Assembly (NCBI GenBank): GCA_025617375.2
Contig: JAMYGW020000003.1
Coordinates: 1,922,001-1,986,000 of the forward strand
From: Acarospora socialis
Lineage: Eukaryota > Ascomycota > Lecanoromycetes > Acarosporales > Acarosporaceae
Length of the DNA: 64,000 nt
Reading direction: 5' to 3'
The notes beneath the pieces were generated by a model that was not told the DNA's origin, made no database searches, and saw only the letters and a program-made list of their open reading frames with translations. The position numbers and the translations under genes were made by a program. Of the stretch, positions 1-6,460 are shown one piece after another. How positions within the stretch are numbered: the stretch's first letter is position 1; each line of letters begins with the position of its first letter.

Positions 1-3000
1 AAAATATTGAAGTGTTCTTATGCAGTTCTTAAGATTTTTTCTTAGTTCTTAAATATTTTCTGAGATATCATAATCTTTTCATTTTATGAGATAGTGAACT
101 TTCTCACTAATCATTTTCTTCTCTAAAATGTTCTCAACTTTATATTTTTTATCAGATTTAACAGATGTTTCAATGATTTAAAGTGATATGAATTGATTAC
201 AGTGCTGTAACATAAATGCATAAAATATCAGATGTATTCTCATCTCTCTGAATAAATTTAACTTATAGTTTAGTTTCTTGATGTTTTGTATGATCTTGAA
301 TAATTTAATGTTTTTGTTTTTCAGCTTCTTGCTTCTTTCTTTAATTTATATGTTGTTTATTTTTAAGTATATTTTTTCTTCTTTTTCAAATGATTTTGTC
401 TTTATTGTTTGTTCTGTCTGCTGTTTGATTTGTTTTATTAAATTTTGATGCAGTTTCTTCATCTGAGTGATATTCAAAATTACTTTTTAACTTTGTGATT
501 TATGTTCTCTGAGATCTTGTCATATCTTTGAATTATAATTATAATTTACATAGAAAGATGTTTCTTTCATGATCTTATTTTTAGTGTTGTTGTACACAAA
601 CTGTGCTGTTGATAACAGTTGTACTCAGTTATTTTAACTCTTATTAATGTAGTGTCTTAAATATATTTTTATTATCTGATTCATTCATTCACTTTGTTTA
701 TCTGTCTGTAAGTGATACATTATTGACATCTTATATTTTATTTTAAGTTCAGCTGTAAGTGTTTCTCAAAACTTGCTTGTAAACAGCTTGTCTCTGTCAG
801 TAATAAATTCTTTTAATAGTCTGTAATTGTTAATCAATTTTTACAGTATAATGTACATCAATATTGATGTTGTCACAGTTTCTTTGAATGAAATGAACAT
901 TGTGTACTTAATTAATCTATTCACTATAATCAATATACTGTTGAATTTCATTTTTCATGCTGAGTTCTTTGATAATAATAGCTTTATAATGAAGTTCATA
1001 ATAACTGATTTTCATGATGCATCTGAGACATCTAGTTGTGTTACTTCATTGTATTATTTATTTTGATTGATTTTATTTTTTTAACATAAATCACACACAA
1101 TGATCATCTTGATGACTCAATTTCTAAAATTGTTAACATTACATCTTCTTTATACAAGATTTTCTGTGCATTTAACTTCTAAATGTCTGTTGACTCTGTT
1201 GTAATGATATATTTTAATGAGTTTTTTGTCTGTTAAGAAAGCTTACTTTATCTTGTGTATTGCTGTTAAGCTCTTCATAAGAATTTTGTTGTTATTTTCA
1301 CTTAAAATTCTGACATATATCATCTGTACATCTTCATAATCAGATTGTTTGCTCAAGATATCTGCTTCATTATACTCATTATTCTTTTTGTAATGAATTT
1401 GAAATTCATAATCTGTTAATTGTTTTGTTCAATGAATCTGTCATTGATTGAGTTGTTTTATCATTGTGAAGTTTCTCAGATTCTTGTAATCTGTATAGAT
1501 CTGAATTGACTTGTTTATTTTTATAAGATAAGATCTTCAATCTTGCAATGTTTTTATTATTGCAAGAAGTTTCTTATTGTGAATCTCATATCTTTTCTTG
1601 AGTTCAAATAGTTTTCTAAATCAGTACATTATGAATCTCTGTTACTCATTCTTGATCTGATATAGATATGCATTTATTGTGAAATTTGAAGCATTGATTT
1701 TTAATGTTTTTTTACATGCTGAATTGAATATTCTCAAATGTGTCATTTCACTAAAACTTTTCTTTAATACATGAAACACATTCTTCTGCTTTTTCTTTCA
1801 ATGTTATTCTTTGCTTTTGTGTGTTAAATGTGTTAATGATTCTGCTATTCTTGCATAATTTGATACAAACTTTTAATAGTAGTTTGTTAATTCTAGAAAG
1901 ACTTGTACTTTCTTGATTCATTTTGATGTCAGTCAGTCTCTGATTACTTTTATCTTTTTTAAATTCTTTTTGATTTGTTCAGATCAAATCACATAGTTTA
2001 AAAACTCAACTTTCTTGATCTTAAATCTGTTTTTTGACTTTTTCACATACAAAACTCTTTCATTGAGCTTTGTCAGTATCTTTCACATATGTTTGCAGTG
2101 CATTTCAAGATCTTCTAAGTATATCAGAATATCATTAAAATATGTGATCACAAAATCATTGAGATATTTTCTCAACATATTGTTGATTAATCTCTAAAAA
2201 ATAACTGAGACATTTTTTAGTTCAAATAACATAATTGTGTACTCATAATGTTCATATTTTGTTCAGAATGCTGTTTTTCATTCTTTATCTTCTTTCATTC
2301 TGATTCAATAGTAAACATTCTTGAGATTTAAATTTATGAATTACTTAATCTTATTTAATTGATTCTGCAACTCTTTTATTAATAATAGAAAATAATTGTC
2401 TCAGTGAGTTATTTTATTAAGTTGTCTGTAATTGACACATAATTATTTCTTGTCATTCTTTTTTGATATGAACAGAATTGAATATCTCATTGATGACTTT
2501 GATGATCTTATGAATTCTCTCTTGAGATTCTTGTCAAGATAAGTTTTAATTTTCTTGAGTTGATCTTTGTTCATTGAGTATAATGATATTCACTTAGATT
2601 GCTTTCTGTTCAATAATGATATTTTATGATTTCATAATTTATATTTCAGTAAATTCATCTTTAATTGTTCAGAGATCTCATATGCATTCTTAACTGCACA
2701 TATTTCTTTTGTAACTCAATCAATTCTCAAATTCTTTTTACACAATCAGAACATCTTTAGCATTGTATTATATCTGATTAATTTCATGATATTGAATGTT
2801 ATTTCTTGTGTGTTTTCAAGAATTGAGACTTTCACACAGATTTTCTCATCAATTCTTTCAATAATTTCATTCATTATTCATATATTAGATGAACAGTGCA
2901 CTTACTGTGTCTCTAATTTCAACATATTGATTATTTTACAGTTTATAATGTTACTGTTCACTTCAGAATTTATTAATGTGTTGATTTGATGTTCATTGAT

Positions 3001-5319
3001 TATAATTGTGATTCATATTTAATAATCATTATTGTGTTTTTAAGACACTGCTAGCTTCTTGTTCTCTAATTTTGTCAAGAAAGCTTTTCATTTTTTGACT
3101 TATTTGATTGTTTAACTTGTTTTTAAAGTTCTTGAAATCATCTTGATTTCTTTTTAATCATAAGATTCATATACTTTAAACTGTACTGCTCAATACATCT
3201 TTCTGAATGTAGTCAGAGTTCATACTGATTATACTTTATCTGCAATTGACTCTTTAAGATTCTTACTCTTTGCAGAAATTCAAATGACATATATTCTTCA
3301 CTAAAAATTCATCTGTCTTCATTCTGTGTAATATATTTTTTAAATAGATGTATCTCAATCTTGTGACTTTTTGTCTTTCATATAAGAGATTTCAGCAATA
3401 CTGTGTCATCATTATTGAAATATTTGTCTTTAACAATCATTATCAACTCATTCAGCTGATCATATGTCTTCTGTTCTTTTACATTCTTGTGTTGTGTTTT
3501 TTGTTTTTAAGTTTGCATTTCTTGCTCAAGTTTATTTTTCTTGAATTAAAGCTTTTCTTCTTTCAACATTTTGTGTTGATTTTCTGAGTGCTGATATACT
3601 TTCTTCAATTTTATATTGATTTCTTATTTATTGATCTCTTTCTGATCTGCATTCAAATTCAGTATTTGTCAAATATTATCACTGTAGTCTTCTTCTATCT
3701 GAATTTCTTAAGTATTAGTTTCTTCAATCTTAACATTAAGAATGTTTTTCTTGACATATTCTTTTATTAAAATAATTAATTCTTTCTTATAAATCAATCT
3801 GTTGCATCTGTCTTTGTTTTTTCTTTTAAACTTCTGTGAATATCATCTGACTTCATTTTTTGTGTTTATATGTACTTTGCACATATCATTGTAACAGACT
3901 GTTTAGCTGAGAGTGTTGTGCACTATACATATATTCTTTTTGACTGTCACTGCAACATTTTTTCTTTTTATTTGAGATTTGTTGCATTTTCAGACAAGAT
4001 GTCTGAATTTTCTGCAATTATAATACATTTATGTCTTGTTTTGTAATGTCATCTGAAACTTAGTAAATCACTCTATCTGACATTCAGACTTCACTTATTT
4101 AGTTTTTTATGACTTCTGATAGTGTTTTTTAATTATATTAAGATTTATAGAGTTTGTCTTTTTATATTTTATCAGTAAAATATATTACTTAACTCACAGT
4201 CAGAAGCTTTCTTCTTGATCTTTTATCATAGATGACATTCAATATTCTTTTTGTTTCATCTATTGTTCTCACTGACAATTATCAATGTTAATATTCAGAT
4301 CAATCATTCTCTGAAGATTGTTTGATTGTTTTACTTAAACTATCTTGTTTTTGATGAACTTTCTCAATTCACAATAGTACTGATAAATAAGTGCTTTGTT
4401 ATTTTATCTGATAAGTATTGCTAATTGCTGAAACTCTGTAATATATACTGTTGCTGATTCATTTTATCATAAGATATAAACTTATTTCTCTGCTGTTTTC
4501 TTTTCATCAATTATTCTGAAGACTTTCTTGAGTTTTTTTTTAAATTATTTATAGTCATTAAATATAGACTTCACATCTGCATTGTATTCTTTGTATTTTT
4601 TCTCTAAAAACTCATGCAGCTTGAGATCAATTCAGTTGAAGACTGCATTCACAAAATAGATTGTTGCAAACAGTGTTTTCTCTTGATTGATTTGAAACTT
4701 TAATTGATTGAATTTGATGTACAGATTGAGTTTAATCACAAAGATTTACAATTTTTTTCATTCTTCATCAAAGATATCTGATATCTGTATCTTAGATGCA
4801 CTCAAAGATAGTTGTATTGTGTGAACTGACATCATCACTGATTTTACTGCTGTTCTATCTGAAGTAGATGATAAAGATGAATTTGCTTGAGCTTATTTTA
4901 AAAATAAAATTAAGACATTCTTCTGTGTGTCAGACATCATATTTGTTATATTATAAGAGTGTTCAAAGTGTAATGTTTTAATCTGAGCTTTCTTGAATAT
5001 GTAGAACTAAAAATTTGTGCTTATTAATATAATAACTGATCTGAAATGATTCTGATCTTTAACTTTTAAATGATTATTTAAGTTGAACATGATTGTTTTC
5101 ATAAGAAAAATGATTCTACTATATAGTGAGCTTGTTTGTCAAGCTCACTGTTGAACATGTTGAGACAGCTTGCTCATGCAATTTGTTGAGCTTGCTTCTC
5201 AAGTTCATTGTTGAGCATATTGAGATGTCATGTGACTGCTGTCTAAATATTCTCTGAATATACACTTTTCATGTGTATACATCAGTCTGTTTCTAGTTCA
5301 TTCTGACTTGACTGTAACA
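1..5319 (-). mobile_element. Ty3/Gypsy LTR retrotransposon fossil, hypermutated, left end outside window
   Basis: The minus-strand translation, although heavily broken, keeps the order of a Ty3/Gypsy element. A gag-like region lies at about 4160-4940, a CCHC zinc knuckle near 3965-4040, a reverse transcriptase core near 2110-2450 (a YRQLNK motif survives), then an RNase H region near 1400-1700 and an integrase region near 620-1110. A likely 5' LTR lies at about 4970-5319, beginning TGTTACAG on the minus strand; its inner end is uncertain. The 3' end and second LTR are beyond base 1. Many breaks are present throughout, so it is plainly inactive. Its GC content is far below that of the neighbouring genes, and it lacks CC, GG and CG dinucleotides. 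Age cannot be judged from divergence because mutation looks saturated. Confidence 0.85.
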
Positions 5320-6155
5320 ATGATTCAAACTGACTTTCTTCATGCATGACAAATCATGATGACTTGATCAAATCATATTCTTGTTCTTCAATTTGAAGAT
5401 CTTATCAGAATCAAGTACTTATGAATCTTTCAGACAGCAACTTGATGAATAAAATAAGTTAAAAAAGATCAGCTGATTGAAGCTGAGACATAATTTGTTG
5501 AGAAATTTGTCTTTTCATGAAGCTTAGAGAGATGTCAATTGAATAATGAAAGAGACTTGAAGAAGAAGATTGAGTTTACTTTCTGATTCAGACAAGTGCT
5601 ATGTGCTGTGATTGTGTTATGTTAGACTGAATTAACTTATGAACTCATCTGACTTGATCTTCATCAGTGTGACTCAAAGAGTTTTCTTCAGATTCAATGC
5701 AGAGTTGATTGACAGACTGTTTGACAACTCATTGTTGAGCTATACATTGATGATGCAGCAGAAATCTGCTTGATAGTGTGAGACATATTTTCAATTGACT
5801 GTTGTCACAGACAGAACAGCATCAATCTAAAGTCACTTCAACTACTTAATTTCTCAGTTTCACATCAATTCAATTGCTCAGTCAGTCACAGAAATGCAAC
5901 AGAGTTAAGACAACAAGAATATCAGTCAGAATGTTCACTGAAGTGTTGCACAAGATAAGAAGAAACAGATAAGAATCAGAAAGCATGTGTAGAAAAACAG
6001 ACTGAAGATGCATTTCAGAGTGCAAAGAGTATGTGTGAAGATACATGAATTCAAAATGATCAGTTGACAATCACACTGTAAGAGCTTCTCATTGTTAGAC
6101 TGACACAAAGTGATGTCATAGCTGAAGAAATTGTCAAGACTGTGTCAATTGATAA
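5320..6155. other. Hypermutated AT-rich DNA without recognisable gene
   Basis: This stretch lies outside the presumed LTR of the retroelement fossil but shows the same complete lack of CC, GG and CG dinucleotides. No reading frame of useful length or recognisable motif survives. It may be part of another repeat, or single-copy DNA into which the mutation process spread from the neighbouring element. The short open frames here look like chance. Confidence 0.7.
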
Positions 6156-6335
6156 GGGTGACAGCTGTGGGTTGAGGTTCAAGTGAATTGTTGCAAGAAG
6201 ATGGGAGGACAGTCAATAGCTGCACAATTGATGTTAATGAGGGATGGAGAATGAAGGGAAGAAGGATGAAGTGTGAGGGGGAAGGTGGTATTTATGTTTG
6301 AGAGAAAGTGGTGATGGGTGATGCACACACACTTT
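6156..6335. other. Strand-asymmetric border of the hypermutated island
   Basis: GG dinucleotides reappear at 6156 and occur many times in this 180-bp stretch. The first CC appears only at 6336 and the first CG at 6359. Every C on the + strand here is followed by A or T. Thus + strand cytosines show the same depletion as the island, whereas minus-strand cytosines do not. The stretch ends about 125 bp upstream of the chosen MRM1 start codon, so it probably overlaps that gene's promoter or 5' UTR. Confidence 0.65.
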
Positions 6336-6460
6336 CCCCAATTGGGAGAAGCCAAACCCGGCAGGGCGAACACCAGCAAGCAAATAACGCTCAATATTAT
6401 TTCCGACCGACCATCAAAAGTCCACTGTCCTTGCTGAAAAAGCTCTGCCCTTTCGAGGTA

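Follow-up and report, generated by a model that had tools for sequence, protein, structure and literature searches.

What kind of process leaves six kilobases of a fungal genome without a single CC, GG or CG dinucleotide? The question is posed by positions 1-6155 of a 64,000-nucleotide stretch of Acarospora socialis DNA (the window; C3:1922001-1986000 in a genome of 31.1 Mb and 38 contigs), where a degenerate Gypsy-type long terminal repeat (LTR) retrotransposon lies. The absence, claimed in a sequence-only reading, proved exact when all 16 dinucleotides were counted: CC, GG and CG each occur zero times in 1-6155 against 115, 108 and 111 expected from composition, at a GC fraction of 0.269, and the observed/expected ratios are 1.61 for CA, 1.52 for TG, 1.35 for TC, 1.53 for GA, 1.21 for CT, 1.13 for AG, 0.95 for GC and 0.64 for TA. 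Elsewhere in the window (57.8 kb) the composition is ordinary (0.92 for CC, 0.93 for GG and 0.95 for CG). Comparison of repeat copies reveals a real and widespread repeat hypermutation with a target rule opposite to that of the repeat-induced point mutation (RIP) of Neurospora, and we think it probable that the repeats have been hit repeatedly by a RIP-like genome defence that converts C to T on both strands, preferring its targets in the order CpG ≥ CpC >> CpA ≈ CpT. In this scheme CpG would become TpG or CpA and thereafter offer no preferred target, CpC would become mostly TpC, and repeated rounds would use up CpG and CpC while the erosion of CpA and CpT lags behind by a factor of approximately 6-18 that varies between data sets.

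Simulations of such rules were started from random sequence matched to the normal dinucleotide composition of the window (GC 0.52), not from the actual ancestor. Exhaustive change of CpG and CpC combined with 15-30% change of CpA and CpT gave GC 0.30-0.25 and ratios of 1.59-1.48 for CA, 1.58-1.48 for TG, 1.51-1.39 for TC, 1.50-1.41 for GA and 0.59-0.71 for TA, near the observed values, while neither a CpA-only nor a CpG-only rule reproduced the observed composition. Classic Neurospora-type RIP, which turns CpA into TpA, has in common with this locus the C-to-T direction, the targeting of repeats and a RID-like gene, but it predicts an excess of TpA and a loss of CpA and TpG, and the region has a TpA/ApT index of 0.665, a (CpA+TpG)/(ApC+GpT) index of 1.62 and a composite of -0.955. 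With the thresholds of PMC7882544, RIP is scored in none of the 6 one-kilobase windows here and in none of the 120 from the genome survey described below, 15 of which hold at most one CG. Two further indices defined in RIPCAL (PMC2621366), (CC+GG)/(TC+GA) and CG/(TG+CA), are both 0 in 1-6155. The CpA preference that is usual, if not universal, for RIP is missing, CpA being mutated 6-18 times less than CpC in the copies, so that the classic form has next to no claim on this region. The warning that indices built on TpA, CpA and TpG could misjudge such a region was therefore justified, and lists of RIP-negative species may conceal such cases.

The Gypsy-type element and its copies

Positions 1-5319 cover most of the dead retrotransposon, which continues leftward beyond the window. 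Its internal part (1-4968, minus strand) is recognized by copy matches, by the lack of CC, GG and CG, and by an SH3_Tf2-1 domain (minus strand, 178-345, Pfam E 5.5e-9), a domain linked to Gypsy elements; nothing else exceeded the Pfam cut-off in the 4 of 17 short reading frames that were searched. Its right end is a 351-bp LTR with TG...CA termini (4969-5319, minus strand), whose left partner lies outside the window at C3:1921109-1921459, and which is the 5' LTR provided that coding is on the minus strand. ATAAT/ATGAT is likely the 5-bp target-site duplication flanking the element. The region is not a single repeat; it consists of this retrotransposon and a separate duplication (5320-6397) discussed below. 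The element has at least 37 matches in the genome, at least 24 of which are further copies of nearly full length (≥4.6 kb) at 80-85% identity, and its right end has at least 43. At two loci (L028 and L031), additional pieces of this Gypsy family, from the LTR or the interior, lie close by, which suggests clustered or nested insertions.

The two LTRs of one retrotransposon are identical at insertion. In the window element, 58 transitions and 2 transversions have come to separate the two along their 351 bp, with 12 TG/CA alternatives, and the hypermutation therefore came after insertion, acting on an ancestor that did possess CC, GG and CG. Thus, for the Gypsy element, the LTR pair and the TG/CA alternatives at the same sites dispose of the condition under which the hypermutation proposal was to fail, namely an ancestral element already lacking these dinucleotides.

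For the mutation spectrum, copies were star-aligned to the window in 17 rows (3763-5319), 10 rows (1-946) and 29 LTR rows, the last overlapping the first alignment. The LTR search excluded L001, L003 and the methyltransferase loci; the pairwise counts and Gypsy alignments excluded L002, L004 and matches of >99% identity, with matches of <300 bp also removed from the pairwise counts and rows below 80-90% coverage from the alignments. Columns with <8 letters (Gypsy) or <6 (LINE-like, for the long interspersed nuclear element-like family introduced below), or with too many other bases, were skipped. CG is absent from all 27 rows of the 17- and 10-row alignments, and Gypsy rows have a GC content of 23-36%. 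Former CpG sites, recognized by rows with both TG and CA, number 126, 61 and 33 in the 17-, 10- and 29-row alignments; no row is still CG at any of them, and TA stands at 6-24 of the 126 per row. Copies thus resolved the same CpG sites independently, and exhaustion is complete: none of 2735 cells of CpG origin in the 17- and 10-row alignments remains CG. CpC is less thoroughly consumed. The least mutated row (L020) retains 13 CC and 24 GG over 3763-5319, and CC or GG persists in the least mutated rows and in the younger family, so the idea that CpG and CpC are hit alike does not hold. At the 65 sites with surviving CC in 3763-5319 the cells read 117 CC, 657 TC, 134 CT, 154 TT and 31 other, a pattern less sharp than in the LINE-like family.

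Pairwise dinucleotide counts, taken naively, suggested heavy change at CpA and CpT, an impression we rejected as confounded by CpG and CpC ancestry; columns were therefore reclassified by the next column and the younger family was added. After reclassification, the share of inferred target cytosines that read T was 10-33% for CpA and 13-32% for CpT in the 17 rows, 16-34% and 17-44%, respectively, in the 10 rows, and 0-33% and 0-23% in the LTR rows. The claim that cytosines before A or T are spared was thus half right: they change far more slowly than those in CpG or CpC, yet they are slow targets and not immune. Most differences between copies are C:G to T:A transitions, in the Gypsy and LINE-like families as well as in the LTR pair, and transversions between Gypsy copies amount to 0.0201 and 0.0088 per site in pairwise comparison.

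Polarized changes in a LINE-like family

The LINE-like family, found through survey stretch L042, carries reverse transcriptase and RNase H domains and has 32 matches, most of them 96-97% identical. In 7 copies compared over 3.5 kb, 67 of 76 singletons are C-to-T or G-to-A. Sorted by the next base, these singletons occur at 4/8 CpG, 46/147 CpC, 10/587 CpA and 7/441 CpT cytosines, a CpC/CpA ratio of ~18; at the level of cluster branches the counts are 48/181 for CpC versus 15/599 for CpA (~11). Across 15 copies, whose variable columns divide into 343 transitions and 36 other changes, C/T-variable columns comprise 19/24 CpG, 183/296 CpC, 66/965 CpA and 52/739 CpT (CpC/CpA ~9). Private C-to-T changes in 11 branch groups, with the next base taken from the mutated copy, number 72 at CpC, 38 at CpA, 24 at CpT and 12 at CpG, or a CpC/CpA ratio of ~6 with the 15-copy denominators. 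The magnitude of the preference is therefore uncertain threefold (6-18) and its order is not. Alignment of copies by the next base, which might have found CpA mutated as often as CpC and CpG, gave no such equality; the process is not CpA-directed, and both families support near-complete C-to-T change on both strands at cytosines before C or G in repeats.

It is the 5' cytosine of a CC pair that mutates. Among 381 cells at CC pairs, 299 are CC, 77 TC and 5 CT, and CC runs across the 15 copies gave 149 TC, 16 CT and 5 TT. Damage by ultraviolet light, or a deaminase of the APOBEC type that attacks paired cytosines, could be invoked for the many affected CC sites, all the more as lichens are sun-exposed. 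Ultraviolet light and APOBEC3G, however, alter the 3' C or convert CC to TT, the opposite of 77 TC against 5 CT; CG is the dinucleotide most affected, and survey sequence outside CG-free windows mostly has ordinary CC and CG counts, which leaves either agent barely conceivable as the cause. In CCC, 14 of 54 cells read CTC and 40 CCC, with no other forms; the stronger statement that CCC mutates solely at its middle C failed in the 15-copy runs (22 CTC, 9 TCC, 7 TTC, 3 CCT and 2 TCT), and amounts to a preference. The next context in the 15 copies ranks CCA (134/183) above CCT (35/71) and CCC (14/41), and this CCA excess and the middle-C tendency hint at a preference at the +2 base.

The same family bears on when CG was lost. 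Seven copies hold 1-6 CG per 3.5 kb, and the near-absence of CG from a family in which most copies agree at 96-97% implies that it spread, or was homogenized, after CG loss. Part of the CG loss hence predates spread, as would be expected of elements that lacked CC, GG and CG already when they spread. That explanation is refuted for the window's Gypsy element by the LTR pair and by copies that resolve the same CpG sites differently, and within the LINE-like family the loss of CC is visible on individual branches; we regard it as highly improbable. Matches fall at C1:2.66-2.80 Mb, C5:1.53-1.60 Mb, C10:184-267 kb, C7:1.32-1.36 Mb, C14:9-91 kb, C8:202-210 kb and C2:1.50 Mb, and these clusters, one per contig, are possibly centromeres.

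Mechanism, candidate enzymes and known systems

The main rival to a RIP-like defence is passive decay, in which DIM-2/DNMT5-type enzymes methylate CpG and, unusually, CpC in heterochromatic repeats and slow deamination of 5-methylcytosine does the rest without a repeat-sensing mutator. The genome does have DIM-2-like and DNMT5-like genes, and loss is graded across copies, with CG going first and CC later. We examined strand phasing in the 17, 10 and 29 Gypsy rows, against a shuffle uncontrolled for regional bias, and in 11 LINE-like groups. Strand-phased tracts were rejected as a feature of these repeats, at most weak clustering being present in Gypsy rows and none in the LINE-like groups. Each site seems to have changed largely on its own, whether in many successive rounds or by a slow process. 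Several of these observations weigh against an active defence. The same-strand excess in Gypsy rows is weak (43/56 rows above the shuffled expectation and 8/56 at p<0.05, overlapping rows included), and none of the 56 would survive correction; strand phasing was not found in the 11 LINE-like groups (lowest p 0.063), as passive decay would have it. A burst within one cell cycle is unsupported, and gradual accumulation would leave a similar picture. On some LINE-like branches the context bias is less marked (72 C, 38 A, 24 T and 12 G as next base in the 11 groups), polarity is partly uncertain, one cluster showing 6 apparent T-to-C changes before C, and the LINE-like family lost most of its CG before it spread, its CpG rate resting on 24 columns.

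Relative rates, which give no absolute time scale, tend to speak against passive decay. Survival of 0/2735 CpG alongside transversions at 0.9-2.0% per site implies, by arithmetic, that the loss of CpG outpaced transversion by a factor of several hundred or more, whereas methylated CpG in mammals mutates at tens of times the transversion rate. CpC singletons in the LINE-like family run at ~270 times the transversion rate, a figure that depends on 4 singleton transversions among 3500 columns, and a methylation preference for CpC would itself, as far as we are aware, be unusual. We therefore consider passive decay unlikely. In the RIP-like defence that we favour, one of the RID-, DIM-2- or DNMT5-like enzymes would be responsible, the RID or DIM-2 type being the first candidates; it would sense repeats and may, like its Neurospora counterpart, be active during the sexual cycle.

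A Pfam DNA_methylase search of the genome returned 4 matches at three loci, so the methyltransferases that the sequence-only reading proposed to look for are present. A RID-like protein at C2:1420221 (L034:1-1995) has a DNA_methylase domain and a second exon match, a DIM-2-like protein at C3:855595 has a methylase domain with a BAH match just below the cut-off, and a DNMT5-like gene gives a DNA_methylase match at C8:614409; all three names rest on motifs that we presume to be characteristic. The RID-like protein has 13 homologues, 12 of them aligned over 99-100% of the query, with matches including Pleopsidium and Blastenia. In an alignment with 8 of the 13, the residue after PCQVFS is tryptophan in the RID-like protein and in P0001, P0002 and P0006, and phenylalanine in P0008 and P0009; the same position is proline in P0004, P0012 (PCKTFS) and P0013 (PCQYFS). 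By analogy with other methyltransferases, this residue would sit in the catalytic loop and close to the target base; it is a possible specificity change, its role being a guess. A tentative extension, on the doubtful side, is that the RID-type enzyme here switched target recognition from CpA to CpG/CpC, giving a separate 'CpS' form of RIP that uses up its own targets and is scored as no RIP by the standard indices; if so, that form may be common and overlooked.

Set beside known systems, the process is best filed as a RIP-like genome defence with a target preference unlike the reported CpA, CpT and CpG ones. As in the RID/DIM-2-dependent RIP of Neurospora crassa, C:G changes to T:A on both strands, in repeats, in a genome with RID- and DIM-2-type genes; Neurospora and most species, however, prefer CpA (PMC12543289, PMC2621366), which is used 6-18 times less than CpC here. 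RIP-like defences are described as sharing the CpA preference in a survey of 1,239 fungal genomes (PMC12543289, section 9), to which the present genome looks like a counter-example. CpC and GpG are depleted beside CpA in repeats of Stagonospora nodorum, with CpA dominant (PMC2621366). CpG is a leading target, as here, in MATE elements of Aspergillus nidulans and in Tuber melanosporum, Coccidioides and basidiomycetes, but the second target is CpA in A. nidulans and Tuber, and Microbotryum shows a TpCpG context (PMC2621366, PMC4352252, PMC4014442). In the basidiomycete Rhizoctonia solani AG8, CpC is the densest class of single-nucleotide polymorphisms (one per 214 bp, with CpG at one per 370 bp; PMC4014442, Table 2), and in repeats the figures are one per 301 bp and one per 583 bp, respectively (PMC4014442). 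That system is described as CpG-biased and concerns heterokaryotic polymorphisms that are genome-wide and sparser in repeats (PMC4014442), whereas here the loss is near-total and in repeats. Botrytis, Sclerotinia and Magnaporthe show a second kind of preference that likewise is not for CpA, namely one for CpT, and a link between it and a motif of RID has been proposed (PMC4352252); in the present genome CpT is no preferred target (52/739 columns). The lichen fungus Cladonia rangiformis has strong retrotransposon RIP with sharp edges, RID and DIM-2, and its transposable elements are mostly at 10-20% GC (PMC12542154), lower than the Gypsy rows here, which keep much CpA and CpT. No report of RIP preferring CpG and CpC over CpA was found in the accessible text of the openly licensed PMC literature; an earlier report is possible, subscription journals lying mostly outside that scope. 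A context rule this clean offers a handle on cytosine choice by RID/DIM-2-type enzymes, and allows transposable element copies to be ranked by mutation stage, with CG lost, CC next and CpA and CpT last.

Edge of the tract and extent across the genome

The mutated tract ends within a 1078-bp duplication (5320-6397) that is shared at 85% identity with C5:226499-227576; no third copy was found among the 40 scored of 551 candidate matches. Both copies of this two-copy duplication are mutated, the C5 copy along its whole length and the window copy only up to ~6337. In the window the earliest GG is at 6156, the earliest CC at 6336 and the earliest CG at 6359; 6156-6335 is free of plus-strand targets alone, which places the true end of the tract at ~6337. 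The edge zone (6156-6337) has one CC (6336), no CG and 23 GG retained, which suggests, on small numbers (5 TG>CA and 1 CA>TG), that mutation there acted on one strand. Over the same zone the C5 copy has bottom-strand changes at 19/23 CpC, 8/25 CpA and 4/20 CpT. The edge is sharp: the final 60 bp of the duplication (6338-6397) are unmutated here (5 CC, 5 GG and 3 CG) and mutated in the C5 copy (1 CC, 0 GG and 0 CG).

Beyond the window, 22 of 30 loci from the right-end search are CG-free along all of their 3.3-3.8 kb, and the remaining 8 hold 1-79 CG, with mutated and normal parts counted together. We also surveyed 10 contigs at set positions, in 20 stretches of 6 kb each (120 kb, or 240 windows of 500 bp). 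CG is absent from 30 of these windows, 19 of which have at most one CC or GG, and the predicted occurrence of such windows in other repeats was borne out. All 30 fall in 5 of the 20 stretches, namely L042, L043, L048, L049 and L051, which have 32, 52, 22, 57 and 47 repeat matches, respectively, self included (L048 was queried at 2000-3400 only and L049 at 1-5000 only). Over the queried parts, every mutated stretch followed up thus carries repeats. Some leakage occurs: in L043 and L051 the low-CG sequence extends some hundred bases beyond the repeat. Short repeats escape, on the one class examined, since all 12 of 23 5S rRNA-type matches inspected with 50-bp flanks keep 10-17 CG per 220-229 bp.

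L043:1-1069 and L051:1-797 belong to one family of ~0.8-1.07 kb with about forty copies, nearly all at 81-88% identity, and at least one of its copies (C6:636023-637091) adjoins a Gypsy copy at 636906-641904. L048 (C4:1702000-1703400) represents another dispersed family, with 22 matches including itself and ~0.9 kb in common at 83-91%. An ISWI-like gene in the window has normal composition and only short 69-71% matches elsewhere, with no close second copy. For a protein encoded in the window, the nearest named homologues are in lichen fungi such as Candelaria, Candelina, Pycnora, Xylographa and Caloplaca (~59-61% identity), and the best matches are ~90% identical over 63-69% of its length.

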